Shown here piece after piece: positions 1 to 12,572 of a stretch of 12,572 nt of DNA (within the stretch, counting starts at the first letter, position 1; the number at the start of each line of letters is the position of its first letter). The notes beneath the pieces were generated by a model. The model ran no database searches, was not told the origin of the DNA, and was given only the letters and a program-made list of their open reading frames with translations. The translations under genes were made by a program, and so were the position numbers. Location of the stretch: assembly GCA_022564935.1 (NCBI GenBank), contig JADFKM010000060.1, positions 1 to 12,572 of the forward strand, in the 5' to 3' direction. This DNA is from Candidatus Dadabacteria bacterium (GTDB lineage: Bacteria; Desulfobacterota_D; UBA1144; Nemesobacterales; JADFKM01).

Positions 1-812
1 AAGGGAACAGGGTCGAGAAAGGCAGGTACGGGCTCCATTACATGTACAGCAACGACAACCATTTCGTTGAAAACGTGTTCAGCGAAAACCTGGTAGGCGG
101 TTTCTTAATGTACAGCACCGGGATACGTCTTTACCGGAACGTTTTTGCAAGGAATAGGGGTATGGCGAGCGGATACGGTATAGGGTTAAAAGACCTTGAC
201 GACGTTGTTATGAGCGAAAACCTGTTCGTCGAGAATAGGGTGGGCGTCTATATCGACAATTCGCCCCGCTCCATTGACTCCCGCAACATTATGAGAAAAA
301 ACGTGATCGCATTCAATGACATCGGCCTCTCGGTTATGCCTGCGGTGGAAAGGAATGTCATAGTGGGTAACAGCATTATCGACAACACTGAGCAGGTCGA
401 GGTGAGGGGGGGCGGTACCCTGAGAGGGAACGTGTGGTCTGAGCTTGGCAGGGGTAACCACTGGAGCGATTACGTTGGTTACGACGATAACGGAGACGGC
501 GTGGGAGAGGTTCCCTATCTGGCCGAGAGCCTGTTCGAGAGCCTTATAGACAGGTATCCGATACTACGCATACTCATGTTCAGCCCCGCCTCGGAGGCGA
601 TCGAATTCGCTTCAAGGGCGTTTCCCATAATCAAGCCCGAGCCGAAGGTGAGAGATAACCACCCGCTGATTAAGGCCGGGCTTCCCGGTTGGGTAAACAC
701 AGACAGAGGCGGATATTCTCCGAAATTGCTCGGTCTCTCAACCCTTATGATCATTGCGTCGGCAGCTATATATTTATATTTAATACTGCCTTGGAGGGGA
801 AAAGACGTTTGA
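1..812 (+). CDS. nosD: NosD, copper-handling beta-helix accessory protein of N2O reductase (5' partial)
   Basis: NosD is an exported right-handed beta-helix (CASH-domain) protein that works with the NosFY ABC transporter in assembling the copper-sulfide CuZ centre of NosZ. The frame is open to the left edge of the window, so the N-terminus is missing; the first in-frame ATG, at 42, is internal. The visible part has short repeated beta-helix turns (N-x-F-x-x-N, N-x-I/V-x-x-N). Near the end it has the typical segment N-H-W-S-D-Y followed by a D-x-N-G-D-G-V-G-x-x-P-Y motif, the usual NosD signature. The last ~25 residues form a hydrophobic stretch (LSTLMIIASAAIYLYLILPW) that would anchor the protein in the membrane. 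The stop codon overlaps the TTG start of nosF, which supports translational coupling. The identification is firm from motif plus neighbours. Confidence 0.9.
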   Translation, partial: GNRVEKGRYGLHYMYSNDNHFVENVFSENLVGGFLMYSTGIRLYRNVFARNRGMASGYGIGLKDLDDVVMSENLFVENRVGVYIDNSPRSIDSRNIMRKNVIAFNDIGLSVMPAVERNVIVGNSIIDNTEQVEVRGGGTLRGNVWSELGRGNHWSDYVGYDDNGDGVGEVPYLAESLFESLIDRYPILRILMFSPASEAIEFASRAFPIIKPEPKVRDNHPLIKAGLPGWVNTDRGGYSPKLLGLSTLMIIASAAIYLYLILPWRGKDV

Positions 813-1720
813 TAAAGATAAATGATGTAAGCAAGTGTTTTGGCAGCCTCAGGGCCTTGGACGGCGTTTCAACCTCGGTGGAAAGGGGGGAGGCCGTGGC
901 GCTTCTCGGCCCCAACGGGGCGGGCAAAAGCACCTTGATCAAATGCCTTCTCGGTGTGCTCGATTTCACAGGCGAGATAATAGTTGACGGGCTCGGCGTA
1001 AGGGACAACTCAAAGCTTACTAAAGCCCTCATGGGATACGTGCCGCAGGAGCCCGCTTTTTACGATATGACCGTGCTTGAGCTCGTGGGTTTTTTCGGCT
1101 CCCTGCGCAACGTAAAAAGAGAGAGAATCATGGAGGCGATCGAGCTTACGGGTCTTACCGAGCACGCAGGCAAACACTGCTCCGCACTGTCCGGAGGGAT
1201 GAAGCAGAGGCTTTCTTTCGCCATAGCCATGCTCTCCGATGCCCCGATCCTACTCCTTGACGAGCCGACCTCAAATCTCGACGCCTTTGTCAGGACTGAT
1301 TTTTTGCGCCTTATAAGGGATTTTAAGGAGAACGGCAAGACGATCCTATTCTCCTCTCACAGATTGGACGAGGTGGAGTTTTTAGCGGACAGGGTGGTCG
1401 TGATGAACTCGGGCAGGATAGTGCTGGAATGCAGTCCCCATGACCTGACGAAGCAGATCGAGCACAAAACTCGAATTCACCTCGAAATACCCTCTTCCAG
1501 CTTGCCCGCCGCCGATAGTGTTATTAGGGAACTCGGATACGAAGCCGTTACGCTCAACTGCGGGGACCTGATTGTAGAGACCTCGGTGGAAAATAAAATG
1601 GGTCTTTTGAGCGCCCTCATTAGACGGAACGTTCCGGTAACGGATTTTAAAGTCGAGGAAATATCAATGGAGGAGCTTATGCTGGCCTTAGTGTCGGAGA
1701 GGGGTAATGATGGACATTAG
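809..1720 (+). CDS. nosF: NosF, ABC transporter ATPase for N2O reductase maturation
   Basis: This is the cytoplasmic ATPase that, with NosY and NosD, forms the transporter supplying material (probably sulfur) for the NosZ CuZ centre. The start is taken as TTG at 809, which overlaps the nosD stop and lies 9 nt after a GGAGGGG ribosome-binding site at 793-799; longer in-frame starts would lie inside nosD. This gives 303 aa, the usual NosF length. Motifs from that start are Walker A GPNGAGKST (34-42), a Q-loop Gln at 80, signature LSGGM (127-131), Walker B ILLLDE (147-152) and the switch His at 184 (SSH). The C-terminal ~90 residues are a DrrA/NosF-like extension. The gene overlaps nosY by 14 nt. 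The context distinguishes NosF from generic ABC-2 ATPases. Confidence 0.92.
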   Translation: MIKINDVSKCFGSLRALDGVSTSVERGEAVALLGPNGAGKSTLIKCLLGVLDFTGEIIVDGLGVRDNSKLTKALMGYVPQEPAFYDMTVLELVGFFGSLRNVKRERIMEAIELTGLTEHAGKHCSALSGGMKQRLSFAIAMLSDAPILLLDEPTSNLDAFVRTDFLRLIRDFKENGKTILFSSHRLDEVEFLADRVVVMNSGRIVLECSPHDLTKQIEHKTRIHLEIPSSSLPAADSVIRELGYEAVTLNCGDLIVETSVENKMGLLSALIRRNVPVTDFKVEEISMEELMLALVSERGNDGH

Positions 1721-2546
1721 AAATATCAATGTTCTGGTTAGAAAGGAAGTGAGGGAGTCGCTTAAGAACAGGTGGTTTATTCTCTACACAGCGGGCTTTT
1801 CCATCCTCGCACTGCTCGTCATGTTGTTTGCCACCTCAAGCGGGGGCCTTGGCGGTTACTCGGGGTTTGGACGTATTACTGCAAGCCTCATCAACCTAGT
1901 GCTCTTTTTCATTCCTCTAATCTCTATCGTCACGGGCGCCGTCAGTATATCAGGCGAAAGAGAAAATAAAACACTCGCGTTCCTCCTGTCCCATCCCGTT
2001 TCAAAGTCCGAGGTTTTCATCGGCAAGTTCACGGGACTCCTGATCTCGATTTGGGTCTCGATTGTTCTGGGGTTTGGTTTAGCGGGTGTCGTGGCAGCGC
2101 TCAGAGGAGGGAGTGAAGACGCCTCGAGGTACCTGATGATGGCGCTGCTCTCGGCCCTTCTTGCGGCCTCAATCCTGAGCGTCGGGTTTCTAGTATCTTC
2201 ACTTTCCAGGAAGGTGGCCAGTGCGATGGGAGTGGCGGTGTTCCTGTGGCTAGCCTTCATCGTGCTTGGAGACCTCGGCATCATGGGAACCACGATTGCT
2301 ATGGATTTGGGGGTAAGGCAGGTTTTCGTGCTCGCAGTCATTAACCCGGTCGAGGTTTTCAAGATGACCGCGGTGATGACACTTAGCCCCAGGTTTGAAG
2401 TGCTGGGGCCGGTGGGGATCTACGCCCTCAGGACGTTTGGAAGTGCGGGTACGTTCTGGCTGCTTTCAGGGGTAATGGTGCTTTGGACGGCGGTTCCACT
2501 GTGCATCGCCATGTTGTCCTTCACCGTCTGGAGGAGGGAGGAGTGA
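1707..2546 (+). CDS. nosY: NosY, ABC-2 type membrane permease of the Nos transporter
   Basis: NosY is the integral-membrane subunit paired with NosF. The 279-residue product has a short charged N-terminus (V-R-K-E-V-R-E-S-L-K-N-R-W, the typical start of ABC-2 permeases that couple to the ATPase). It is followed by about six hydrophobic segments, including one around residues 20-40 and a final one near 250-272. The motif S-G-E-R-E-N-K-T-L-A-F-L-L-S-H-P-V-S near residue 85 is the conserved coupling region of NosY/ABC-2 proteins. The ATG at 1707 is preceded by a strong GGAGAGGGG site, and the gene begins inside the end of nosF. Its stop TGA overlaps the GTG start of nosL (GTGA). All these couplings point to one polycistronic unit. 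Confidence 0.92.
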   Translation: MMDIRNINVLVRKEVRESLKNRWFILYTAGFSILALLVMLFATSSGGLGGYSGFGRITASLINLVLFFIPLISIVTGAVSISGERENKTLAFLLSHPVSKSEVFIGKFTGLLISIWVSIVLGFGLAGVVAALRGGSEDASRYLMMALLSALLAASILSVGFLVSSLSRKVASAMGVAVFLWLAFIVLGDLGIMGTTIAMDLGVRQVFVLAVINPVEVFKMTAVMTLSPRFEVLGPVGIYALRTFGSAGTFWLLSGVMVLWTAVPLCIAMLSFTVWRREE

Positions 2547-3007
2547 AGAGGTACGCGGCAGTTTTGTTGATTGTATTTTTTGCGGCGGCGGCTTCCTGTG
2601 AGAGGCAGGAGGGCCCTCCCGTGCCGGGCAGGGTGTTCTATGGAGAGGACATCTGCGAGAGGTGCAAGATGATAATCAACGAACGGGAGTTCTCCGCACA
2701 ATACGTCTTAAAAAACGGAGGGGTAAAGAAGTTCGACGACATCGGGTGCATGCTGCATTTTCTTAAAAACAACAATATCGATAGGGGCGCTTTAGGGGGA
2801 ATCTATGTCAGGGATTACGGCTCCGGGCGGTGGATAGACGCAGAGAGCGCTTTCTATGTCGTTAGCGACAATATAAAAACGCCTATGGCACACGGCATTG
2901 TGGCCCACGGGGAAAGGGTAGCAGCAGAAGCACTGGCGAAGGACAAAAGTGGTATTGTTTTAAAGGGCCTTGACGGGGCTTCGAATAAAATATCATCTAA
3001 TAGATAG
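2543..3007 (+). CDS. nosL: NosL, lipoprotein copper chaperone
   Basis: NosL is an outer- or cytoplasmic-membrane-anchored lipoprotein that binds Cu(I) and delivers it to NosZ. The start chosen is GTG 2543, overlapping the nosY stop and preceded by GGAGGGAGGA inside nosY. An upstream in-frame ATG at 2483 would add residues from the nosY frame and spoil the signal peptide. From GTG the protein is 154 aa. It has a Lys-Arg start, a hydrophobic stretch and a lipobox ending AAAASC, with the lipidated Cys at residue 19. The metal-binding motif C-E-R-C-K-M is at 38-43, followed by I-I-N-E-R-E-F-S-A-Q, typical of the family. It is the last gene of the nos run; a gap of about 250 bp follows. Confidence 0.9.
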   Translation: MKRYAAVLLIVFFAAAASCERQEGPPVPGRVFYGEDICERCKMIINEREFSAQYVLKNGGVKKFDDIGCMLHFLKNNNIDRGALGGIYVRDYGSGRWIDAESAFYVVSDNIKTPMAHGIVAHGERVAAEALAKDKSGIVLKGLDGASNKISSNR

Positions 3008-3141: not shown

Positions 3142-3263
3142 GTTTATACCCGCCCTCGGTATTTAGTATTAGATAGTGGATAGGGGCATAAACAATGATT
3201 ATATTAGTAGAGTAAAACATGGTTTCATGGTGAAGCTTTCGGTTCATGCGGAGGGGGTCAAAT

Positions 3264-4418
3264 ATGGACGAGCTCAGTAAGGATGAATTGAGAGAACTTA
3301 TAAGCGTGGATGAGGGGCCTTGCCTATCAATCTATTTGCCCACTCATAAATCGGATAAAGGAGTAACGACAAATCCGTCTAGATTTAAGAGCCTCATACG
3401 AGCTGCCGAGCGCCAATTACAGACTGCGGGGCTTCGCTCGGTTGAAATACAAAAGCTTATCAGTCCGGCTCGCAAGCTCATTGATAGCATATCTTTTTGG
3501 CGGCACCAGAGCGAGGGGCTGGCCGTTTTTTGTTCGCCTCGGAAATTCGAGCGCTTCCGCCTGCCTATAAAATTCGAGGAGCTCGCTATAGTCTCGGGCC
3601 GTTTCCACATAAAACCCCTTATTCGCTTTTTCACCGGAGAGGGCCAATTTTATGTGCTGGCTCTCAGTCAAAACGATGTAAGGCTGCTACGCGGCTCACA
3701 TTTCAACGTCACTGAGCTGGATATAGAAACCGTTCCAACAAACCTGGCCGACGCGCTGAGGGATGACGTGATTCCTAAACAGATTCATTTTCACTCCGGC
3801 ACTACAGGCAGAGGCGGTAAGAGGGACTCCATCATTCATGGAGCCAGCGCCGAGCCGGACGCAAAGGACGCTATGCTTCGGTATTTCCATAGGATAGACA
3901 AAGGCTTGCACGAATATTTGAAGAACAAACGCGCACCTCTTGTGCTTGCCGGAGTCGATTACCTGTTTCCAATTTACAAAGAGGTTAACACTTACCCCTT
4001 CATCGTGGATGAAGGCATAGAGGGAAACCCGGACAGACTGAGCCCGGAACAGCTGCATGAGAAGGCCTGGAAAATAGTTCAGCCCCGCCTAGAGAGGGCT
4101 ATTGACAAAGCTGTTTGCAAATATAAAGGGTTTGAGGGCACCGGAAGCGGCTTGGCCTCAAGCGACATTCATGAGATACTCGACGCCGCCTTTCAGGGAC
4201 GGATTGAGTATTTGCTGGTAGCGGTAGGCGCTCATCTATGGGGGAGTTATGATCCAAATGCGGGTGAAATTCGTTTTGATGAGAAGCCCGAAAACGATAA
4301 TGAGGACCTCTTAGACTACGCCGCCGTTCATACCATCTGGAATAGGGGGACAGTGTATGTGGTTGAAAGGGAAAGGGTACCGGGAGACCGGCCCTTTGCC
4401 GCCATGTTTCGCTTTTGA
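3264..4418 (+). CDS. baeRF family protein (bacterial eRF1-domain-3-like)
   Basis: The product (384 aa) resembles the bacterial 'baeRF' proteins, relatives of archaeo-eukaryotic release factor domain 3 / Pelota-like folds that have been proposed to act on ribosomes. What is seen is the N-terminal pattern L-R-E-L-I-S-V-D-E-G-P-C-L-S-I-Y-L-P-T-H, a mid-region with V-L-A-L-S-Q-N-D-V-R-L-L-R-G, an H-F-H-S-G-T-T-G-R-G-G-K segment, and a C-terminal G-x-I-E-Y-L-L-V-A-V-G region ending in a short basic/aromatic tail. ATG 3264 is preferred over ATG 3246 because GGAGGGGG at 3250-3257 is positioned 6 nt before it. The gene stands alone, with about 256 bp before it and about 830 bp after, so context gives no function. 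I am confident of the family, not of the subfamily or role. Confidence 0.8.
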   Translation: MDELSKDELRELISVDEGPCLSIYLPTHKSDKGVTTNPSRFKSLIRAAERQLQTAGLRSVEIQKLISPARKLIDSISFWRHQSEGLAVFCSPRKFERFRLPIKFEELAIVSGRFHIKPLIRFFTGEGQFYVLALSQNDVRLLRGSHFNVTELDIETVPTNLADALRDDVIPKQIHFHSGTTGRGGKRDSIIHGASAEPDAKDAMLRYFHRIDKGLHEYLKNKRAPLVLAGVDYLFPIYKEVNTYPFIVDEGIEGNPDRLSPEQLHEKAWKIVQPRLERAIDKAVCKYKGFEGTGSGLASSDIHEILDAAFQGRIEYLLVAVGAHLWGSYDPNAGEIRFDEKPENDNEDLLDYAAVHTIWNRGTVYVVERERVPGDRPFAAMFRF

Positions 4419-4853: not shown

Positions 4854-4898
4854 TGGCGCACCCGGAGGGATTCGAACCCCCGGCCCCAAGATTTGGAA
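4854..4898 (-). tRNA. 3' half of a tRNA gene (anticodon loop to CCA), probable att-site remnant
   Basis: Read on the minus strand, 4898-4854 gives a 7-nt loop TTCCAAA, the 3' anticodon-stem strand TCTTG, and a 5-nt variable loop. It then gives a T-arm with stem GGGGG/CCCTC around TTCGAAT, the acceptor strand CGGGTGC, discriminator G and encoded CCA. The loop would place CCA as anticodon, and with G73 this suggests tRNA-Trp, but only tentatively. No 5' half follows: the 5' anticodon strand would need CAAGA and the sequence reads TAACA, and no matching acceptor strand (GCACCCG or GCGCCCG) is found nearby. Identity ending in the anticodon loop is typical of sites used by tyrosine recombinases. 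It is not a functional tRNA gene. Confidence 0.75.
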
Positions 4899-4947
4899 TG
4901 TTATACTGCCCAAACTCCTCCTTAGGAGCTTCTGCTCTCACATTCCA
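4894..4947. repeat. 8-bp inverted repeat around the tRNA-fragment boundary
   Basis: TGGAATGT (4894-4901) and ACATTCCA (4940-4947) are perfect inverted copies. Between them is a smaller hairpin, CTCCT/AGGAG, around 4915-4928. The left arm overlaps the anticodon-loop end of the tRNA fragment. Inverted core-type sites of this size are expected at recombinase attachment sites, but this function is inferred. Confidence 0.45.
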
Positions 4948-5249: not shown

Positions 5250-5699
5250 ATGTCAGAGTTTATCTTTAAAATCGCTGAAACAGAAATGGAATTAAAACAG
5301 TATTTTCGTCTTCGTGATGATGTTTTTGTTAAAGAGCAAAAAATATTATCTGAAACTGATATTGACGAGCATGACAAGGGGGCGATACACATAGTTGCAG
5401 TAGAAAAATCAACTGGAAAGGTGGTAGGTGGGGTCAGGTGCTACAAAAAAGAGGGAGACACCTGGTTTGGCGGACGACTCAGTACCGCAACAGATTATCG
5501 CAATTGGCGAGTAGGGTTAAATCTCGTGAGATTTGCGGTAAAAACAGTGAAGTCCAACGGTTGCAAAGAGTTCCTTGCATATATTCAACCCCAGAATGTG
5601 AAATTCTTTGAGAGACTGGGCTGGAAAGTCCTAGGGGAGCCCATTATATATCAAGGAATTCCTCATCGGTTAATGGAAGCGGATCTGAACTCAGATTAA
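5250..5699 (+). CDS. GNAT N-acetyltransferase, Sll0786/MSMEG_0567-like (Nit1C type)
   Basis: The product is a 149-residue single-domain GNAT protein, predicted to transfer an acyl group from acyl-CoA to an unknown amine. The pattern fits the family found with nitrilases in Nit1C clusters. It has F-R-L-R-D-D-V-F-V-K-E-Q near residue 19, G-x-V-V-G-G-V-R near 57, W-F-G-G-R-L-S near 72, then G-C-K-E-F-L-A-Y-I-Q-P-Q-N-V-K-F-F-E-R-L-G-W near 104-126, and a final G-I-P-H-R-L-M-E-A-D-L. The ATG at 5250 is the only sensible start; it has only a weak G-rich site upstream but follows a strong promoter. The next gene, 18 nt downstream, encodes the PurM-like partner that accompanies this family in Nit1C clusters. 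The family assignment is from memory of its conserved motifs; the substrate is not known. Confidence 0.75.
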   Translation: MSEFIFKIAETEMELKQYFRLRDDVFVKEQKILSETDIDEHDKGAIHIVAVEKSTGKVVGGVRCYKKEGDTWFGGRLSTATDYRNWRVGLNLVRFAVKTVKSNGCKEFLAYIQPQNVKFFERLGWKVLGEPIIYQGIPHRLMEADLNSD

Positions 5700-5717
5700 A
5701 AGAAAAGGGAGGAAGTA

Positions 5718-6725
5718 GTGCAGGAGCTAATTTCGGCTTTACGTTCTTCACCTCAATTAGCCCATAAAGAAAAGTTGAGAAATCTATGGCACCTGTTGCC
5801 CCGAGTCTCTGAAGTTGACGGTAACGAAGTGATTCTTGGCGACGATGCGGCTGCAATTAAAACCCAAAACGGCTACCTGCTTCTTGCCGCCGAAGGTGTC
5901 TATCCCCCTCTTTTAAGATCGAACCCCTACCTTGCGGGACGCACTTCCGTTCTTGCAAACGTAAACGATATCTACGCTATGGGCGGAAGACCCCTCGCTG
6001 TTGTAGATGTGATATTTGGATCCCATTTTGAAGAAGTCGACCAGGTACTTCGCGGAATTATGGATAATTCCACCCGTTACAGGGTTCCACTGGTTGGCGG
6101 ACACTTAACTTCGGAAGCCGGTTTTTCTTCGGTTTCCGTCTTCATATTGGGTAGAGCCGTTAAACTGCTTTCGAGTTTTGATGCCGCGGTGGACGATGAT
6201 TTGGTTTTTATTTCTAACCTTAATGGGAAATTCTATTCGGGTTTTAACTTCTGGGATTCTTCGAGTAGCTTGAGTGATGAAGAGGCCTTGGGGCAGTTAG
6301 AACTTCTACCTCTCATAGCCGAGGATGGATTAGCGGATGCAGCAAAGGATATAAGCATGGCCGGGCTTATTGGTTCTATACTGATGTTCCTTGAGGGTTC
6401 CGGCAAGGGAGCGGAGATTTATATCGACAGAATTCCCAGGCCTTTTGAGATTCCTTTAAAACAATGGTTTCTTTCGTTTCCAAGTTTTGGATTTATTTTA
6501 TCTCTGAAACCCTTTAACACTCCAAAGCTTAAGAAGAGATTCGAAAAGTTAGATCTAGTGTGTAAAAGGATTGGGAAGGTGACCCTAGGCCATCGGGTCT
6601 TTTTCGTTAACGATAACGGCAAAAAAGAACTTTTCTGGGATCTTAGTATTCGGCCTTTTATTGGTCTTAACAAACTAAACTCAAAAAAGGTGAGTAATGG
6701 AAGAAGCAAGAAATCAGATAGATAG
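5718..6725 (+). CDS. AIR synthase (PurM)-like protein, Sll0787-like
   Basis: This 335-residue protein has the PurM/ThiL/SelD/HypE ATP-binding fold. It shows G-D-D-A-A-A-I (41-47), then A-N-V-N-D-I-Y-A-M-G-G-R-P (80-92), and V-G-G-H-L (126-130) before a conserved hydrophobic strand and G-R. Such proteins use ATP to activate a carbonyl or amide oxygen, often with ammonia or another nucleophile. It is not a purine-biosynthesis PurM: its context and partner GNAT match the Nit1C Sll0787 family, whose reaction is unknown. The start is GTG 5718, 4 nt after GGGAGGA; no ATG precedes the conserved block. The last 29 nt overlap the regulator gene. The C-terminal basic tail (S-N-G-R-S-K-K-S-D-R) lies in that overlap. 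Confidence 0.78.
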   Translation: MQELISALRSSPQLAHKEKLRNLWHLLPRVSEVDGNEVILGDDAAAIKTQNGYLLLAAEGVYPPLLRSNPYLAGRTSVLANVNDIYAMGGRPLAVVDVIFGSHFEEVDQVLRGIMDNSTRYRVPLVGGHLTSEAGFSSVSVFILGRAVKLLSSFDAAVDDDLVFISNLNGKFYSGFNFWDSSSSLSDEEALGQLELLPLIAEDGLADAAKDISMAGLIGSILMFLEGSGKGAEIYIDRIPRPFEIPLKQWFLSFPSFGFILSLKPFNTPKLKKRFEKLDLVCKRIGKVTLGHRVFFVNDNGKKELFWDLSIRPFIGLNKLNSKKVSNGRSKKSDR

Positions 6726-7284
6726 GATCGTCTCAAAGCTGGGAGAAAAGATAAAGGCCCTTCGAAAAGATACGGGCTTGTCTCTGAAGGACTTATCTCG
6801 AAGATCGGGCATCTCTGCCGCTGCGATTCACAAGATTGAGTCGAATGGAATAATGCCGACTATAACTACTATGATGAAAATTGCAGACTCTTTGGGAAAG
6901 AAAGTGAGCTATTTCATTGAGGAAGAAAGTGAAAACAATGATGCCTTTTTTGTTCCGTACTCAAAGCGTGAATCTATTTTAACTTTTAAGAAGGGATTAA
7001 CTCTACAGGGTATCTCTGCAAAGAAGTACGGAGATTTTATTATGACTGCGGCTTGTGCGGTTGTTGATGTAGGAGCCTCAAGCGGCACTAAGCCTATGAG
7101 TCATCGCGGAGAAGAGTTGGTATGCTGTCTCCAAGGAAAAATGGAATTTCGGCTGAAAGATATTACCCATTTATTAGGCCCTGGCGATAGTCTTCATTTC
7201 AGAACTCATCTGGAGCACAGCTGGAAAAATGTCGGTGATGTTCCGGCGAAGTTGATATGGATACTTGCCATTGCACCGTCCTGA
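6697..7284 (+). CDS. XRE-family transcriptional regulator with C-terminal cupin sensor
   Basis: The 195-residue protein has an N-terminal helix-turn-helix of the Cro/CI (XRE) type at about 17-70 (L-R-K-D-T-G-L-S-L-K-D-L-S-R-R-S-G-I-S-A-A-A-I-H-K-I-E). A cupin barrel follows at about 115-192, with H-R-G-E-E-L near 136, P-G-D-S-L-H-F near 162-168 and H-S-W near 174. This HTH-cupin architecture (SutR/PuuR-like) typically senses a small metabolite or metal and controls an adjacent catabolic operon. The ATG at 6697 lies inside the end of the PurM-like gene with an AAAAGGTGAG site upstream. Lying third in the operon, it probably regulates its own transcription through the palindrome at 5186-5202. 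The ligand cannot be read from the sequence. Confidence 0.85.
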   Translation: MEEARNQIDRIVSKLGEKIKALRKDTGLSLKDLSRRSGISAAAIHKIESNGIMPTITTMMKIADSLGKKVSYFIEEESENNDAFFVPYSKRESILTFKKGLTLQGISAKKYGDFIMTAACAVVDVGASSGTKPMSHRGEELVCCLQGKMEFRLKDITHLLGPGDSLHFRTHLEHSWKNVGDVPAKLIWILAIAPS

Positions 7285-7303
7285 GACCAAAGGAGGTAAT
7301 TTA

Positions 7304-8608
7304 GTGGTAGCTGAAATCAGAATGCAAGAAGAAAGCACGCGAACTAAGTATCTTGCAGAACGGATTAAGGAGGCCAATACCACTGCTATAGAAAGAATAC
7401 TTTCTGTTGAACCCACTCTTGTTGACGTCGATACTGCATTAAACGTAATACCCGATATGACCCCAAACACTATACTTCACGCGGGTCCCCCGATTGATTG
7501 GGAAGGGATGTGCGATCCGATGAGAAGAGCCCTTAGAGGAGCTTTGATATTTGAAGGTTTAGCCGATAGCGATCAAAAGGCCGGGGAGCTGCTGCGTGCA
7601 AATCAAATAAAACTTTCACCAAACCATCACCATGATGCTGTAGGTCCGATGACGGGGGTTATCTCCCCTTCTATGCCTGTGATTGTCACAAGGGATTCAA
7701 CGTATGGGAAAACGGCTTATTCCACTTTTAATGAAGGTGGGGGTAAGGCCCTGTGGTTTGGGGCTTTTGGAAAAGAGACCCTTCAGCGCCTTAACTGGCT
7801 AAAGGATGTGTTTGGTTCCGTAATGAAAAGGGTAATTGCTAAAACGGGAGGCATTTCTATCTGGAATATTCTGGCTCAGGGCATTCAGATGGGAGATGAA
7901 TGTCATAATCGTCATTCGGCTTCAACTAATCTTTTCCTAAAAGGCATCGTTGAGCCTCTTCTTTCTATAGATCTGTCACGTGAAGTCGTTATGCAGGCGT
8001 ATAAATTTATTGCGGGAAATAGCCATTTCTTTCTAAACATTACGATGACGGCAAGCAAGCTCGCAATGGATGCAGCCCATCATGTAAGAGATTCCACAGT
8101 ATTGACCGCTATGTCTCGAAACGGGACGGAGTTCGGAATCCGTGTTAGCGGGCTGGGGGACAGTTGGTTTGTAGCGCCTGCTCCTTATCTTCATGATGCT
8201 CTTTATAGTCCCGGATATGGTCCCGGTGAGGGTGCACCCGATATTGGGGATAGCTCGATTATCGAAACAATGGGACTGGGAGGGTTCGCTATTGCCGCCG
8301 CGCCTGCGATGGCCTCTTTTGCAGGGGGAGGTTTCGAAGAAGCTGTGAATATAACAAAGCAGATGGGTCTGATTACACTCTTTGAAAACCCCACATTTAG
8401 AATTCCCGCTTTGGACTTTAAAGGAACTCCGACAGGTGTCGATATTCGCAGGTTTTTAGAAACCGGGATTCTTCCGAGCATAAACAGTGCGGTGGTTCAT
8501 AAAAGTTCTGGGGCGGGGCAGATTGGAGCCGGGATCGCAAAAGCTCCCTATGAGTGTTTTATAGAGGCTCTTAAGGCTTTTGGAAAGAAATATAGTTTGG
8601 CGGCATAG
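7304..8608 (+). CDS. allG: DUF1116 protein, AllG/YlbE-like oxamate carbamoyltransferase component
   Basis: This 434-residue protein belongs to the DUF1116 (YlbE) family. Recognised features are D-V-D-T-A-L-N-V-I-P near the start, H-A-G-P-P-I-D-W-E-x-M-C-x-P-M, L-S-P-N-H-H-H-D-A-V-G-P-M-x-G-V-I-S-P-S-M-P, the conserved Q-M-G-D-E-C-H-N-R-H, and G-A-G-Q-I-G-A-G-I-A near the C-terminus. In E. coli the AllF-AllG-AllH complex catalyses oxamate carbamoyl transfer, making carbamoyl phosphate. Start GTG 7304 is set by an AGGAGGT site at 7291-7297, 6 nt before it; an upstream ATG at 7265 lies in the regulator gene. The stop TAG at 8606 overlaps a GTG that is a possible start of allF. The gene symbol is by similarity; the actual carbamoyl donor here may differ. 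Confidence 0.82.
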   Translation: MVAEIRMQEESTRTKYLAERIKEANTTAIERILSVEPTLVDVDTALNVIPDMTPNTILHAGPPIDWEGMCDPMRRALRGALIFEGLADSDQKAGELLRANQIKLSPNHHHDAVGPMTGVISPSMPVIVTRDSTYGKTAYSTFNEGGGKALWFGAFGKETLQRLNWLKDVFGSVMKRVIAKTGGISIWNILAQGIQMGDECHNRHSASTNLFLKGIVEPLLSIDLSREVVMQAYKFIAGNSHFFLNITMTASKLAMDAAHHVRDSTVLTAMSRNGTEFGIRVSGLGDSWFVAPAPYLHDALYSPGYGPGEGAPDIGDSSIIETMGLGGFAIAAAPAMASFAGGGFEEAVNITKQMGLITLFENPTFRIPALDFKGTPTGVDIRRFLETGILPSINSAVVHKSSGAGQIGAGIAKAPYECFIEALKAFGKKYSLAA

Positions 8609-8643
8609 TGTGTGATGATCCCTGGATTACAGAGAGGAAAAAG

Positions 8644-10206
8644 TTGGCGACAATAAGCACGTTAAAAAAAAACTACTATCAGGATTCGCTGAAGCTAATG
8701 CAGATAGGTCAAAAGCTAAGCTCTTTTCCCGGTGTTAGTAATGCATACGCTATGATGGCGACAGAAGCCAATATAAAGATGCTAAAAGAATCTGGATTGA
8801 TTATGGGGGCTTTCGACTCAGCAAATGCGAATGATCTGATCGTATCGGTTGAAGCGGAATCTGAAGAGGCGGCAAAAGAAGCGATAGACAGGTTAGATTC
8901 TCTTTTTCTTCCCAAGCAGAGCGGTGTTAGTACAAAAGAAGAATATAAAAACTTTGATTCTGCTTACGGCGCCCTACCTCAGGCAAACCTAGTAAATATT
9001 TCTGTTCCCGGCCAATATGCTAAATTGGAAGTTGCAAAGGCAATCGATAGGGGTCTTCATACGTTTCTTTACAGTGATAACTTAACGGTTGAGGAAGAAA
9101 TAGAGCTCAAGGAAAGGGCTAAAGAACGAGGACTTTTGATGATGGGCCCAGGTTGCGGCACGGCAATAATCAATGGGGTTGGTCTAGGGTTTGCAAACGT
9201 GGTAAGGCGCGGACCGATTGGAGTAGTCGGCGCGGCGGGAACAGGAATGCAGGAGGTCACCAGCCTCATCCATAATTGGGGCTCGGGGATTTCCAATGCA
9301 ATTGGGGTGGGTGGAAGGGATCTATCAGAAAGAGTCGGCGGACTCATGATGATAGAGGCTATAAGGATGCTCCAAGGAGACGAGAGCACAGAAGTTCTTC
9401 TTCTCGTTTCCAAGCCTCCTTCGGAAAAAATAGCAGAAAAAGTCCTCACCGTTGTCCGTGGAGGTAAGAAACCTGCCGCCCTTTGCTTCCTTGGAAGGAA
9501 TTCGCACAAGGAAATGGAACCAAACATTCGCTTCGCTTCCACATTGGAAGAAGCGGCTCTGGAGGCATTGAAGCTACTGGGGATAGAGAGAGAGCGCTCT
9601 ACAATTCTCTCCAGTAAGAAATGGAAAAGTAGGGCCGAGAGGTTTATTAAATCACTCCATTCCAGACAACGTTATCTTCGCGGCATATTTTCAGGCGGCA
9701 CTTTCTGTTATGAAGCCCAACAGGTACTCACCGTGATTTTAGGAAAGATTTACTCAAATGCTCCACTCGATAAGGAAAACAAATTGGAAGACTCGAGTAT
9801 AACTAAGCGTCATAGTTGCATCGATTTGGGTGAAGAAGAATTTACACAGGGTCGTCCTCATCCCATGATCGATCTAACATTGGTGAAGGAGAGGTTGATT
9901 GAAGAGGCTTCTTTCTCAGATGTAGCGGTAATTCTTTTCGATGTAGTTCTTGGATACGTAGCCAGCTCCGATCCCGCTGGTGATCTTATACCCGCGATTA
10001 AAAAAGCAAAGACTATCGCAAAGAAAAACGGAAGTTCTCTTGCGTTCGTGGCTCACGTCTGCGGTACGGAGGATGACCCACAGAACCTGGGATCACAACA
10101 GGAAAAACTAAAAAAAGCAGGGGTGTTGGTCCTTCCTACAAATGCACTTGCCTCTAGAGTTGCAGGATGGATTACAGCAAGGGGTAAAAAGGGGCTGGGA
10201 ATTTAA
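8644..10206 (+). CDS. allF: FdrA/AllF-like protein, acyl-CoA-synthetase-fold carbamoyltransferase component
   Basis: The protein matches FdrA/AllF over its length. The start K-K-x-x-Y-Q-D-S-L-K-L-M is like K-K-x-x-x-Q-D-S-x-x-L-M in E. coli FdrA. Further blocks are G-P-G-C-G-T-A-I-I-N-G, G-V-V-G-A-A-G-T-G-M-Q-E, G-V-G-G-R-D-L-S-x-x-V-G-G, V-S-K-P-P and G-R-P-H-P-M-I-D. The fold is that of succinyl-CoA synthetase, but the family acts in the oxamate carbamoyltransferase, not in CoA ligation. TTG 8644 is preferred because GAGG (8634-8637) is 6 nt upstream and the protein then starts where E. coli FdrA does. The alternative GTG 8608, overlapping the allG stop, would add 12 residues and has no ribosome-binding site. 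The length is 520 aa from TTG, somewhat shorter than E. coli FdrA. Confidence in the family is high. Confidence 0.85.
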   Translation: MATISTLKKNYYQDSLKLMQIGQKLSSFPGVSNAYAMMATEANIKMLKESGLIMGAFDSANANDLIVSVEAESEEAAKEAIDRLDSLFLPKQSGVSTKEEYKNFDSAYGALPQANLVNISVPGQYAKLEVAKAIDRGLHTFLYSDNLTVEEEIELKERAKERGLLMMGPGCGTAIINGVGLGFANVVRRGPIGVVGAAGTGMQEVTSLIHNWGSGISNAIGVGGRDLSERVGGLMMIEAIRMLQGDESTEVLLLVSKPPSEKIAEKVLTVVRGGKKPAALCFLGRNSHKEMEPNIRFASTLEEAALEALKLLGIERERSTILSSKKWKSRAERFIKSLHSRQRYLRGIFSGGTFCYEAQQVLTVILGKIYSNAPLDKENKLEDSSITKRHSCIDLGEEEFTQGRPHPMIDLTLVKERLIEEASFSDVAVILFDVVLGYVASSDPAGDLIPAIKKAKTIAKKNGSSLAFVAHVCGTEDDPQNLGSQQEKLKKAGVLVLPTNALASRVAGWITARGKKGLGI

Positions 10207-10207
10207 A

Positions 10208-11158
10208 ATGAGGGAAAAGATGAAGTTAGCTGTGGTAGCGTTTGGTGGAAACGCTCTCATGGGGAAAGATGGAAAAAGCAGTTATGCGCAGCAGATGAAC
10301 AAAACCGAACAGATATGTGGAAAACTGCTCGGACTTTTTGATCTTGGCTATGAGATTGTAATCACTCACGGAAATGGTCCTCAGGTTGGAAATTTTCTCA
10401 TGCAGCAGGAATGGTTAGCCGATGCTATTCCCCCAATGCCCCTTGATGTTTGTAATGCAATGACACAGGGTCAGATGGGATATATGATAGAGCAGAGGCT
10501 AAGAAACACTTTGATCGAAAAACGTATGGAAAAATCTGTTATCACCTTTGTTACTCAAGTAGTAGTTTCAGAGAATGACTCTGCTTTTAAAAATCCTACA
10601 AAGTTTATCGGCCCGTTTTTTGACAAAGAGGAAAGTGAGATGCTTCGGCAAGAAAAGGGCTGGCGGATGAAAGAGGATTCTGGAAGGGGTTACAGACGTG
10701 TAGTTCCCTCTCCCATGCCTATAGACATAGTTGAAAAAGAAGAAATAGTCAAGATGGCAAGTAAAGATTTTGTCGTAATAGCATGTGGAGGCGGTGGAAT
10801 CCCCGTGCTTCGAGATAAAAAGGGAAGGCTCAAGGGAGTAGAAGCCGTAATTGACAAGGATTTGGTTGCTGAGAGACTAGCTAGCCTCGTCGGTGCAGAT
10901 ACGCTTCTATTAATAACACCGGTAAGCCAGGTAGCAATTTTCTTCGGAACTTCCAAGCAGAGGAATCTGCGAAAGATGACGCTAAAAGAAGCCAAGCGCT
11001 ATTTGGCTGAGGGACATTTCCCGCCGGGAAGCATGGGGCCTAAGATCGATGCCGCAATCAAGTTTCTCCGCTCAGGCGGCAGGAGGACAATCATAACGTC
11101 GCTTGAGGGTATAAATGCGGCAATAAGAGGAGAGGCGGGAACGGAAATAGTTCAGTGA
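10208..11158 (+). CDS. allK: carbamate kinase (AllK/ArcC-like)
   Basis: The enzyme catalyses carbamoyl phosphate + ADP to ATP + carbamate, which breaks down to NH3 and CO2. The 316-residue protein has all the family blocks: V-V-A-F-G-G-N-A-L near residue 9, T-H-G-N-G-P-Q-V-G-N, P-L-D-V-C-N-A-M-T-Q-G-Q-M-G-Y, V-P-S-P-M-P, V-I-A-C-G-G-G-G-I-P-V, G-V-E-A-V-I-D-K-D-L-V-A-E-x-L-A and F-P-P-G-S-M-G-P-K-I-D-A-A. One departure is T-P-V-S-Q-V where many members have T-D-V-x-x-V. The gene starts 1 nt after allF. ATG 10208 (GGGA 7 nt upstream) and ATG 10220 (AGGG 5 nt upstream) are both plausible starts. The position after allG-allF suggests it consumes the carbamoyl phosphate they make, so AllK-type catabolic use is preferred over arginine-pathway ArcC. 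Confidence 0.9.
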   Translation: MREKMKLAVVAFGGNALMGKDGKSSYAQQMNKTEQICGKLLGLFDLGYEIVITHGNGPQVGNFLMQQEWLADAIPPMPLDVCNAMTQGQMGYMIEQRLRNTLIEKRMEKSVITFVTQVVVSENDSAFKNPTKFIGPFFDKEESEMLRQEKGWRMKEDSGRGYRRVVPSPMPIDIVEKEEIVKMASKDFVVIACGGGGIPVLRDKKGRLKGVEAVIDKDLVAERLASLVGADTLLLITPVSQVAIFFGTSKQRNLRKMTLKEAKRYLAEGHFPPGSMGPKIDAAIKFLRSGGRRTIITSLEGINAAIRGEAGTEIVQ

Positions 11159-11341: not shown

Positions 11342-12040
11342 ATGAAGGCAACAAGAAAGGTATTTGATGCTCATACTCATATCGGTGAAATCCCAGCATT
11401 TAAGTATTATGACCTTAAAGAAGCTGTAAAACCAACCGTGATTGAATATTCTTCTTCAAATGAATACATAAAGCATATGGATGAATACAATGTGGACCGA
11501 GCGATGGTTATCTCCAATTACGGGGTGCCGGATTCCGCGCAGCCTTTTTCTCTTAATCCCATTGTGATTGATAGCGTCCACAAAGCAGACCGCCTTGTCG
11601 GTGCTATCTGGGTTTCAGGACTGCCAAAAGACGCTGAACGCACCGAAGAAGCCTTGAGGCATGTAAAAGAAAATGGCATAGTTGCATTAAAGGCCACGTG
11701 CCTACTCGGCGGAACCTATAACCCTGGGGAATGGGATGAATCGGTAAAGGGAATTTGGAATAGTATTGTGAACGCGGCTGAGGAAAATGGTCTTGTTCTC
11801 CATATCCACACCAGCCCTGGGGGCGGTTCCGATATAGGAAACGCTTTGGAGTTTGTAAAGGAATACGGGAAACGGATTAAAGTTCATTTGGTTCACATGG
11901 GTGGCGGTGTGAGCGGTCACATAAGGATCGTTCCGAAGTTCATAGAGTTCGTAAAAGAGGGATATCAGGTTTATACCGATACCACGTGGGCGGTGGGTTT
12001 TGGTTCCAGGTGGCTGCTTCATGAGGTCGAACGAACCGGT
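11342..12040 (+). CDS. metal-dependent amidohydrolase (amidohydrolase-2 type), 3' end lost at a junction
   Basis: The N-terminal 233 residues look like a TIM-barrel amidohydrolase of the PF04909 type. The metal-binding D-A-H-T-H-I-G is at 9-15, L-H-I-H-T at 153-157 and V-H-L-V-H-M-G-G-G near 181-189, followed by Y-T-D-T-T-W-A. The usual last block (G-x-D-R-x-x-F-G-S-D-x-P) should follow H-E-V-E-R-T-G but does not: at 12040 the sequence changes to GC-rich, Arg/Pro-rich nonsense. Start ATG 11342 is favoured over ATG 11338, which stops after nine codons. The same frame happens to stay open to the window end and runs into the cytochrome c, which I do not take as a real fusion. The substrate is unknown; the neighbouring carbamoyl genes suggest an amide or ureide. 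The gene is probably non-functional as seen, or split by assembly. Confidence 0.75.
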
Positions 12041-12049
12041 CGGCGACCG
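12037..12049. repeat. 13-bp palindrome at the sequence junction
   Basis: CGGTCG-G-CGACCG is a perfect inverted repeat with one central base. It lies exactly where the amidohydrolase similarity stops and GC-rich sequence begins. It may have promoted a recombination or a chimera-forming artefact. Confidence 0.55.
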
Positions 12050-12137
12050 CCTCCGTATCGAGTCAGCGCGCCGGGCCGGTTTGGCAGTAAGGCGCCTCTT
12101 CAACCCTTTGGCATGCGACGTGCTAACCCACCGGTGA
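12039..12137 (+). other. possible tail of a GC-rich gene (partial)
   Basis: Right of the junction, the frame starting at 12039 reads V-G-D-R-L-R-I-E-S-A-R-R-A-G-L-A-V-R-R-L-F-N-P-L-A-C-D-V-L-T-H-R and then TGA at 12135-12137. About three quarters of its codons end in G or C, unlike the amidohydrolase frame. This suggests the 3' end of a different gene whose upstream part is missing. I do not recognise the peptide, and 32 codons can be open by chance. Confidence 0.25.
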
Positions 12138-12271
12138 GGCCTAATGGATTACGTCAAGAGGTCGTGAAACTCGGGCCGATAAAATCCCCGCAGCGGCTTC
12201 TCGCTGGTCGCTATGAACCACGTGGGTTCTGGACGGCGGAGCGGCCGGGAGACAACAGGGGTAGATACCTA

Positions 12272-12572
12272 ATGTACAAGTTGCCTACGCGATCGTGGCT
12301 TCCGGGATGTCTGGTCATCGCCGTGGGCCTGTTGCCGCTGGCTTTTTCGTGCCGCAGCAGCGAGCAGTTGGAAGCAATGCCCGTTTCCCAGGAAGGCTCG
12401 TGGCTTTACGTGGCACACTGTGGCGCTTGTCACGGGCGCACAGGCCGGGGGAACGGACCGGCGGCGATCGCCTTGGAGATCCGGCCTCGCGATTTTCGCA
12501 ACGAACCGTTCCGCTACATCTCGACGCTCGACGGGACGCCGACATACGAAGACCTGACACAAACGATCCGAT
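12272..12572 (+). CDS. lipoprotein c-type cytochrome (3' partial)
   Basis: The visible 100 residues start with a basic N-terminus and a hydrophobic stretch ending in a lipobox L-A-F-S-C (Cys at 27), so the protein should be a lipid-anchored exported protein. A heme-c attachment motif C-G-A-C-H follows at 50-54, in the arrangement L-Y-V-A-H-C-G-A-C-H-G-x-x-G-x-G-N-G typical of mono-heme class I cytochromes and cytochrome c domains of electron-transfer chains. ATG 12272 has AGGGG (12257-12261) 10 nt upstream and is the first residue of a sensible signal peptide. The gene runs off the window end. Its composition is distinctly GC-richer than the operon to the left. It would shuttle electrons, but the partner is not visible. 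Confidence 0.75.
   Translation, partial: MYKLPTRSWLPGCLVIAVGLLPLAFSCRSSEQLEAMPVSQEGSWLYVAHCGACHGRTGRGNGPAAIALEIRPRDFRNEPFRYISTLDGTPTYEDLTQTIR

Follow-up and report, generated by a model that had tools for sequence, protein, structure and literature searches.

What do genes for a carbamoyltransferase and a carbamate kinase do in the company of genes from Nit1C, a cluster known for its nitrilase? The question is raised by a contig from a Candidatus Dadabacteria MAG, and it bears on Nit1C itself, a cluster that occurs in several phyla and in which the roles of the radical SAM, GNAT, PurM-like and Sll0783 proteins are unsettled. A variant that keeps these shared proteins, lacks the nitrilase and carries a carbamoyltransferase with a carbamate kinase makes it possible to probe the output of the shared part, since whatever is made must also be acceptable to an enzyme that forms carbamoyl phosphate. 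A 2005 paper described Nit1C as seven conserved genes grouped around a nitrilase (PMC1199592), and Pseudomonas requires the cluster to assimilate cyanide (reviewed in PMC11049912). In E. coli, AllFGH use phosphate to turn oxalurate into oxamate and carbamoyl phosphate; allK lies in the same operon (PMC11326118).

The window, by which we mean the whole stretch of DNA analyzed, is an entire contig of 12,572 bases from a draft genome of 1.99 Mb in 104 contigs. The cluster genes from 5250 to 11158 lie on one strand, with short gaps or overlaps between neighbors; the list also gives what follows them:

5250..5699, plus strand: GNAT N-acetyltransferase of the MSMEG_0567/Sll0786 family, NitE of Nit1C (TIGR04045, 154 bits against a cut-off of 68)
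5718..6725, plus strand: AIR-synthase (AIRS)/PurM-like ATP-dependent protein of the sll0787 family, NitF of Nit1C (TIGR04049, 336 bits against a cut-off of 321)
6697..7284, plus strand: XRE-type helix-turn-helix and cupin regulator (PF01381 and PF07883)
7265..8608 (open reading frame), plus strand: AllG (DUF1116), oxamate-carbamoyltransferase-like subunit (PF06545, 267 bits against a cut-off of 27)
8608..10206, plus strand: AllF (FdrA) subunit (NF004760, 483 bits against a cut-off of 433)
10208..11158, plus strand: AllK, carbamate kinase of the catabolic type (TIGR00746, 392 bits against a cut-off of 358)
11342..12040, plus strand: Amidohydro_2 metal-dependent hydrolase, cluster gene 7, broken off at the contig breakpoint (PF04909; homologue alignment)
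12041..12572, no strand assigned: foreign or misjoined tail (GC content; homology ends at 12040; single copy)

The six genes between 5250 and 11158 that a preliminary description had listed are all present, and curated models bear out their names; the seventh, the amidohydrolase gene at 11342, had been overlooked. Judging from how far conservation extends, AllG probably begins with the ATG at 7322, and the AllK reading frame, which opens at 10142, likely starts at the ATG at 10208. AllG matches PDB 3clq (E 2e-117) and AllF matches the FdrA structure PDB 3dmy (E 1e-82). The PurM-like protein retains a GDDAAAI motif in which G41, D42, D43, A45 and A46 are invariant among 13 homologues, and its predicted structure, of low confidence (mean pLDDT 66), gives fold matches to PurL, ThiL, SelD and HypE. 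Together, the GDDAAA motif and these fold matches point to a likely ATP-dependent step. We also considered HypE-like carbamoyl-to-nitrile chemistry for this protein but did not adopt it, as the protein has no NCBIfam HypE match and no conserved C-terminal cysteine. The XRE-cupin protein is PuuR-like, yet scores under the PuuR cut-off; its gene always lies between those for AIRS and AllG in Dadabacteria (22 adjacencies), and the protein is a probable local regulator.

The window is the 5' half of a larger conserved Dadabacteria gene cluster. Its amidohydrolase aligns with complete homologues up to residue G233 (nucleotide ~12040), after which homology is lost. The last 532 bases have a GC content of 0.617 against 0.449 for the cluster, and a genome search found no second copy of them elsewhere in the host genome. 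In our reading, this tail stems from a misjoin, or from a rearrangement, where the contig ends, and it replaces the remaining cluster genes, which, judging from the order in relatives, would be those for Sll0783, the radical SAM protein, an FAD oxidoreductase, AllH and a glycosyltransferase. AllH, the radical SAM protein and TIGR04044 were not found in the rest of the host draft, which is 88.6% complete. We compared 43 genomes of the same order as the host. AllH (PF11392) is encoded in 23 of them, and in 14 of these it shares a contig with AllG, lying 7-10 kb downstream. The earlier statement that AllH is absent from the window is thus literally true, but it describes a contig-end effect: AllH is missing because the contig breaks inside the amidohydrolase gene, before AllH, and relatives carry AllH downstream in the cluster.

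Comparison of gene order across relatives' regions of up to 20 kb gave the full row: GNAT, AIRS, XRE, AllG, AllF, AllK, (AmdH2), Sll0783, radical SAM, FAD oxidoreductase, AllH and glycosyltransferase. This row, of which the GNAT gene is the first member, is kept across four families of the order. The amidohydrolase gene stands in the row in one family and is divergent and upstream in several others, and the glycosyltransferase is of the MSMEG_0565 type (TIGR04047). Median gaps are -14 to 30 nt at most joins (2 nt between AllF and AllK, and an overlap of 14 nt between AllH and the glycosyltransferase), with wider gaps of 80-336 nt at AllK-AmdH2, AllK-Sll0783, AmdH2-Sll0783, Sll0783-rSAM, rSAM-FAD and FAD-AllH. 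By this neighborhood comparison, the carbamoyl-transfer and Nit1C genes form one conserved unit that recurs across genomes, which supports the preliminary description on this point. Many loci continue past the row with genes for OsmC, a short FdrA-like protein, a 188-residue uncharacterized protein, a methyltransferase, an aminotransferase and others. At 15295-15750 of locus L061, and at equivalent positions elsewhere, a gene for a free-standing 151-residue relative of the N-terminal domain of FdrA adjoins the OsmC gene; it lies downstream of AllH in many Dadabacteria. In Bacterium HR37 (locus L050, 6186-7247), a second carbamate kinase gene lies directly upstream of AllH.

The two gene sets also co-occur. 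AllG, AllH and the radical SAM protein are all present in 19/43 genomes and all absent in 17/43; the seven mixed genomes include the host and other incomplete drafts. Fisher tests of AllG with AllH (p 4e-7) and of AllG with radical SAM (p 2e-7) agree, these values being optimistic given the relatedness of the genomes. In one genus (g6), three genomes carry the whole cluster and the others lack it.

The preliminary description recognized genes of the Nit1C type and did not see the main oddity of the cluster, the loss of the nitrilase. Five Nit1C-defining families score over their curated cut-offs, two of them in the window (TIGR04045 and TIGR04049) and three in relatives (TIGR04043, TIGR04044 and TIGR04047). 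The radical SAM protein TIGR04043 (NitD), beyond the window's contig end, is over cut-off in 21/43 genomes, within the cluster, and the Sll0783 family TIGR04044 (NitB) reaches 173 bits against a cut-off of 110 in L061. The Nit1C nitrilase itself, TIGR04048/Nit6803 (NitC), is over its curated cut-off in none of the 43 genomes, and a tblastn search with canonical NitC against all cluster loci gave no match; nitrilase-superfamily proteins occur elsewhere in these genomes with scores under the TIGR04048 cut-off. Likewise, MSMEG_0570 (NitG) and the MSMEG_0569 flavin oxidoreductase (NitH) had no tblastn match in the cluster loci. Our canonical reference was a Rhizobium daejeonense plasmid with the order Sll0783, Nit6803 nitrilase, radical SAM, GNAT, AIRS, glycosyltransferase, MSMEG_0570 and MSMEG_0569. 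Its Sll0783, radical SAM, GNAT, AIRS and glycosyltransferase proteins share ~35-50% identity with those of the Dadabacteria loci. On plasmids in general, the radical SAM protein and NitC occur in nearly equal numbers (513 and 524 records), with near-equal counts by genus.

With five Nit1C families present and the nitrilase in 0/43 genomes, this is therefore a Nit1C cluster that lacks its eponymous enzyme and carries AllFGHK. It has Sll0783, radical SAM, GNAT, AIRS and the MSMEG_0565 glycosyltransferase in common with known Nit1C (nitBCDEFGH; sll0783-0787; MSMEG_0565-0572). It differs in the lack of nitrilase, MSMEG_0570 and MSMEG_0569, and in the addition of AllFGHK, the amidohydrolase and another FAD oxidoreductase, resembling CoA-disulfide reductase.

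The AllG proteins of these clusters stand apart from others. The closest relatives of the window's AllG (66-79% identity) are nearly all from Dadabacteria or from MAGs of the same kind, which places the host in Candidatus Dadabacteria, and identity to AllG of most other phyla is about 50% or less. An archaeal host, at first suggested by NosD and a methanogenesis-marker-2-like match, was rejected in view of these relatives. In a quick tree search, a branch 0.91 changes per site long (SH-aLRT 100) separated all Nit1C-linked sequences, together with one Dadabacteria sequence from a 4-kb contig too short to judge, from the rest. None of the 63 other AllG sequences, from many phyla, has Nit1C genes nearby.

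One genome outside the order, FK3.bin127 (locus L090), holds AllG, AllF, GNAT, AIRS, AllK, Sll0783, the amidohydrolase, a copy of Sll0783, radical SAM and the FAD oxidoreductase in an order different from the Dadabacteria row; its AllH lies on a separate contig, away from the cluster. The two Sll0783-like genes (15694-16182 and 17135-17623), on both sides of the amidohydrolase gene, are identical and represent either a recent duplication or an assembly repeat. Directly upstream of AllG and in the same orientation, at 3-10 kb, lies a full set of bacterial genes for coenzyme M biosynthesis (XcbA, ComA, XcbC, XcbD and XcbE), adjoined by a sigma-54 regulator.

No allantoinase (TIGR03178) scores over cut-off in the order (0/43 genomes); the weaker matches, mostly one per genome, are probably dihydroorotase. 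The carbamoyltransferase substrate therefore probably does not derive from allantoin made in the cell, and the new substrate that had been suggested earlier, one other than allantoin-derived oxalurate, is plausible. The preliminary description took DUF2877 together with a complete allantoin pathway as evidence against a distinct system; DUF2877 is indeed present, inside the cluster itself, but allantoinase is lacking. AllF, AllG and AllK of the window, and AllH of its relatives, are shared with the E. coli allFGHK operon. In contrast to that operon, the Dadabacteria set is embedded in Nit1C genes, its AllG sits on a separate long branch, and it belongs to an order without allantoinase over cut-off. 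In nitrifiers, AllFGHK without upstream allantoin genes has been reported and interpreted as a means of taking up oxalurate that other organisms produce (PMC12625717). Those nitrifier MAGs resemble our case in that uncultured bacteria and archaea carry AllFGHK but lack upstream purine genes; there, however, the genes are linked to biuH/atzF, whereas in Dadabacteria they are linked to Nit1C.

The reading that we cautiously favor is a nitrilase-free variant of Nit1C in which phosphorolysis removes a ureido (carbamoyl) group, with ATP and ammonia recovered through carbamate kinase. In this scheme, the DsrE-like Sll0783 protein, the radical SAM protein, the GNAT and the PurM-like protein would convert an organic nitrogen compound to a ureido (N-carbamoyl) intermediate, with the FAD oxidoreductase and the amidohydrolase assisting; for production of the ureido substrate, the foremost candidates are the Nit1C proteins together with the amidohydrolase. 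AllF-AllG-AllH would then use phosphate to cleave the intermediate, yielding carbamoyl phosphate plus an amine or amide. From carbamoyl phosphate and ADP, AllK would generate ATP, CO2 and ammonia, and the XRE-cupin protein would regulate the operon. Judging by family membership and by their E. coli counterparts, AllFGH and AllK should catalyze these reactions in Dadabacteria. What the data show is gene content, gene order, co-occurrence, the separate AllG clade and the loss of the nitrilase, of which the gene content and its conservation are solid; the reaction sequence is one that we infer, and its catabolic direction is only proposed. Several points weigh against this reading: five cluster genes are missing from the window itself, AllH of FK3.bin127 lies apart from its cluster, and a nitrilase-superfamily protein encoded elsewhere in the genome and scoring under the cut-off could do the job of NitC.

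One alternative is scavenging of oxalurate or a related ureide as in E. coli, in which AllFGHK breaks down oxalurate taken up from outside and the neighboring Nit1C genes share its nitrogen control but not its pathway. The proteins of the window and its relatives do belong to the AllFGH families, and the nitrifier systems, with the same lack of upstream allantoin genes, offer a precedent for oxalurate uptake. Against this, the two gene sets are interleaved, with AllH between the FAD oxidoreductase and the glycosyltransferase and with GNAT and AIRS ahead of AllG. They are gained or lost together, they are still together after rearrangement in L090, and the AllG protein is distant from that of organisms without Nit1C. 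We consider this explanation unlikely.

The second alternative runs in the opposite direction. AllFGH is reversible, and carbamoylation within a biosynthetic pathway is possible: AllFGH would carbamoylate, and the GNAT, glycosyltransferase, radical SAM and PurM-like proteins would build a small molecule such as a thiol, metallophore or osmolyte. The glycosyltransferase also resembles MshA/BshA, and several loci run on into OsmC, methyltransferase, aminotransferase and cysteine-synthase-like genes. The cysteines of two cluster proteins lend themselves to the same reading. The Sll0783-like protein has one invariant cysteine, and its predicted structure, of low confidence (mean pLDDT 67.5), gives DsrE-type fold matches that agree with the YchN-like assignment of Sll0783 in PMC1199592; the FAD oxidoreductase keeps the active-site cysteine of CoA-disulfide reductase. 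Together these features hint at a thiol or persulfide step, which could equally belong to the favored scheme. The fold searches with the AIRS and Sll0783 models were used as support for the PurM/ThiL-like and DsrE-like assignments only. What weighs against biosynthesis is that the cluster encodes a catabolic-type carbamate kinase, an enzyme whose usual role is to consume carbamoyl phosphate, and that Nit1C genes are tied to nitrogen starvation and the use of cyanide nitrogen (PMC11049912, PMC1199592). We judge a biosynthetic cluster improbable as well.

A carbamoyltransferase without AllH, in which the PurM-like protein takes its place, as had been suggested from the absence of AllH in the window and in keeping with its absence from the host draft, is very improbable and, the absence being an assembly effect, therefore unsupported: the contig is truncated and the draft incomplete, AllH lies inside the same cluster in relatives whose contigs extend far enough, with the PurM-like protein encoded alongside it, and TIGR04049 proteins of canonical Nit1C clusters occur without AllFG.

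Returning to the nitrilase-free variant with phosphorolytic cleavage, it suggests an unrecognized, ATP-yielding route for taking nitrogen from an organic molecule. We found no report of Nit1C genes joined with FdrA/DUF1116/DUF2877 in the open-access literature searched. The cluster would add to the AllFGH enzymes a group with a probably different substrate, in the uncultured and widespread Dadabacteria. A further, more tentative idea, which we think possible rather than probable, is that Nit1C comes in two forms with one upstream module, a hydrolytic form that uses the nitrilase and a phosphorolytic, ATP-recovering form that uses AllFGH and carbamate kinase. If true, the shared intermediate would need to be able to become either a nitrile or a ureido compound, a condition that would constrain the roles of the radical SAM, GNAT and PurM-like proteins.

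Upstream of the cluster, the window carries several other features. Positions 3-3007 hold the last part of a nos operon, with NosD, an ABC transporter pair and NosL, pointing to nitrous oxide reduction by this Dadabacterium, and a baeRF-family (ribosome-hibernation-factor-like) protein, scoring under the NCBIfam model cut-off, is encoded at 3246-4418. An Rfam scan of the window gave no match. On the minus strand at 4854-4900 lies a fragment resembling the 3' end of a tRNA and ending in CCA, with no plausible 5' half adjoining it; ARAGORN gives tRNA-Pro(TGG) here only when a 104-nt intron is allowed. The fragment is the sole exact copy in the host genome and is possibly an integration scar.
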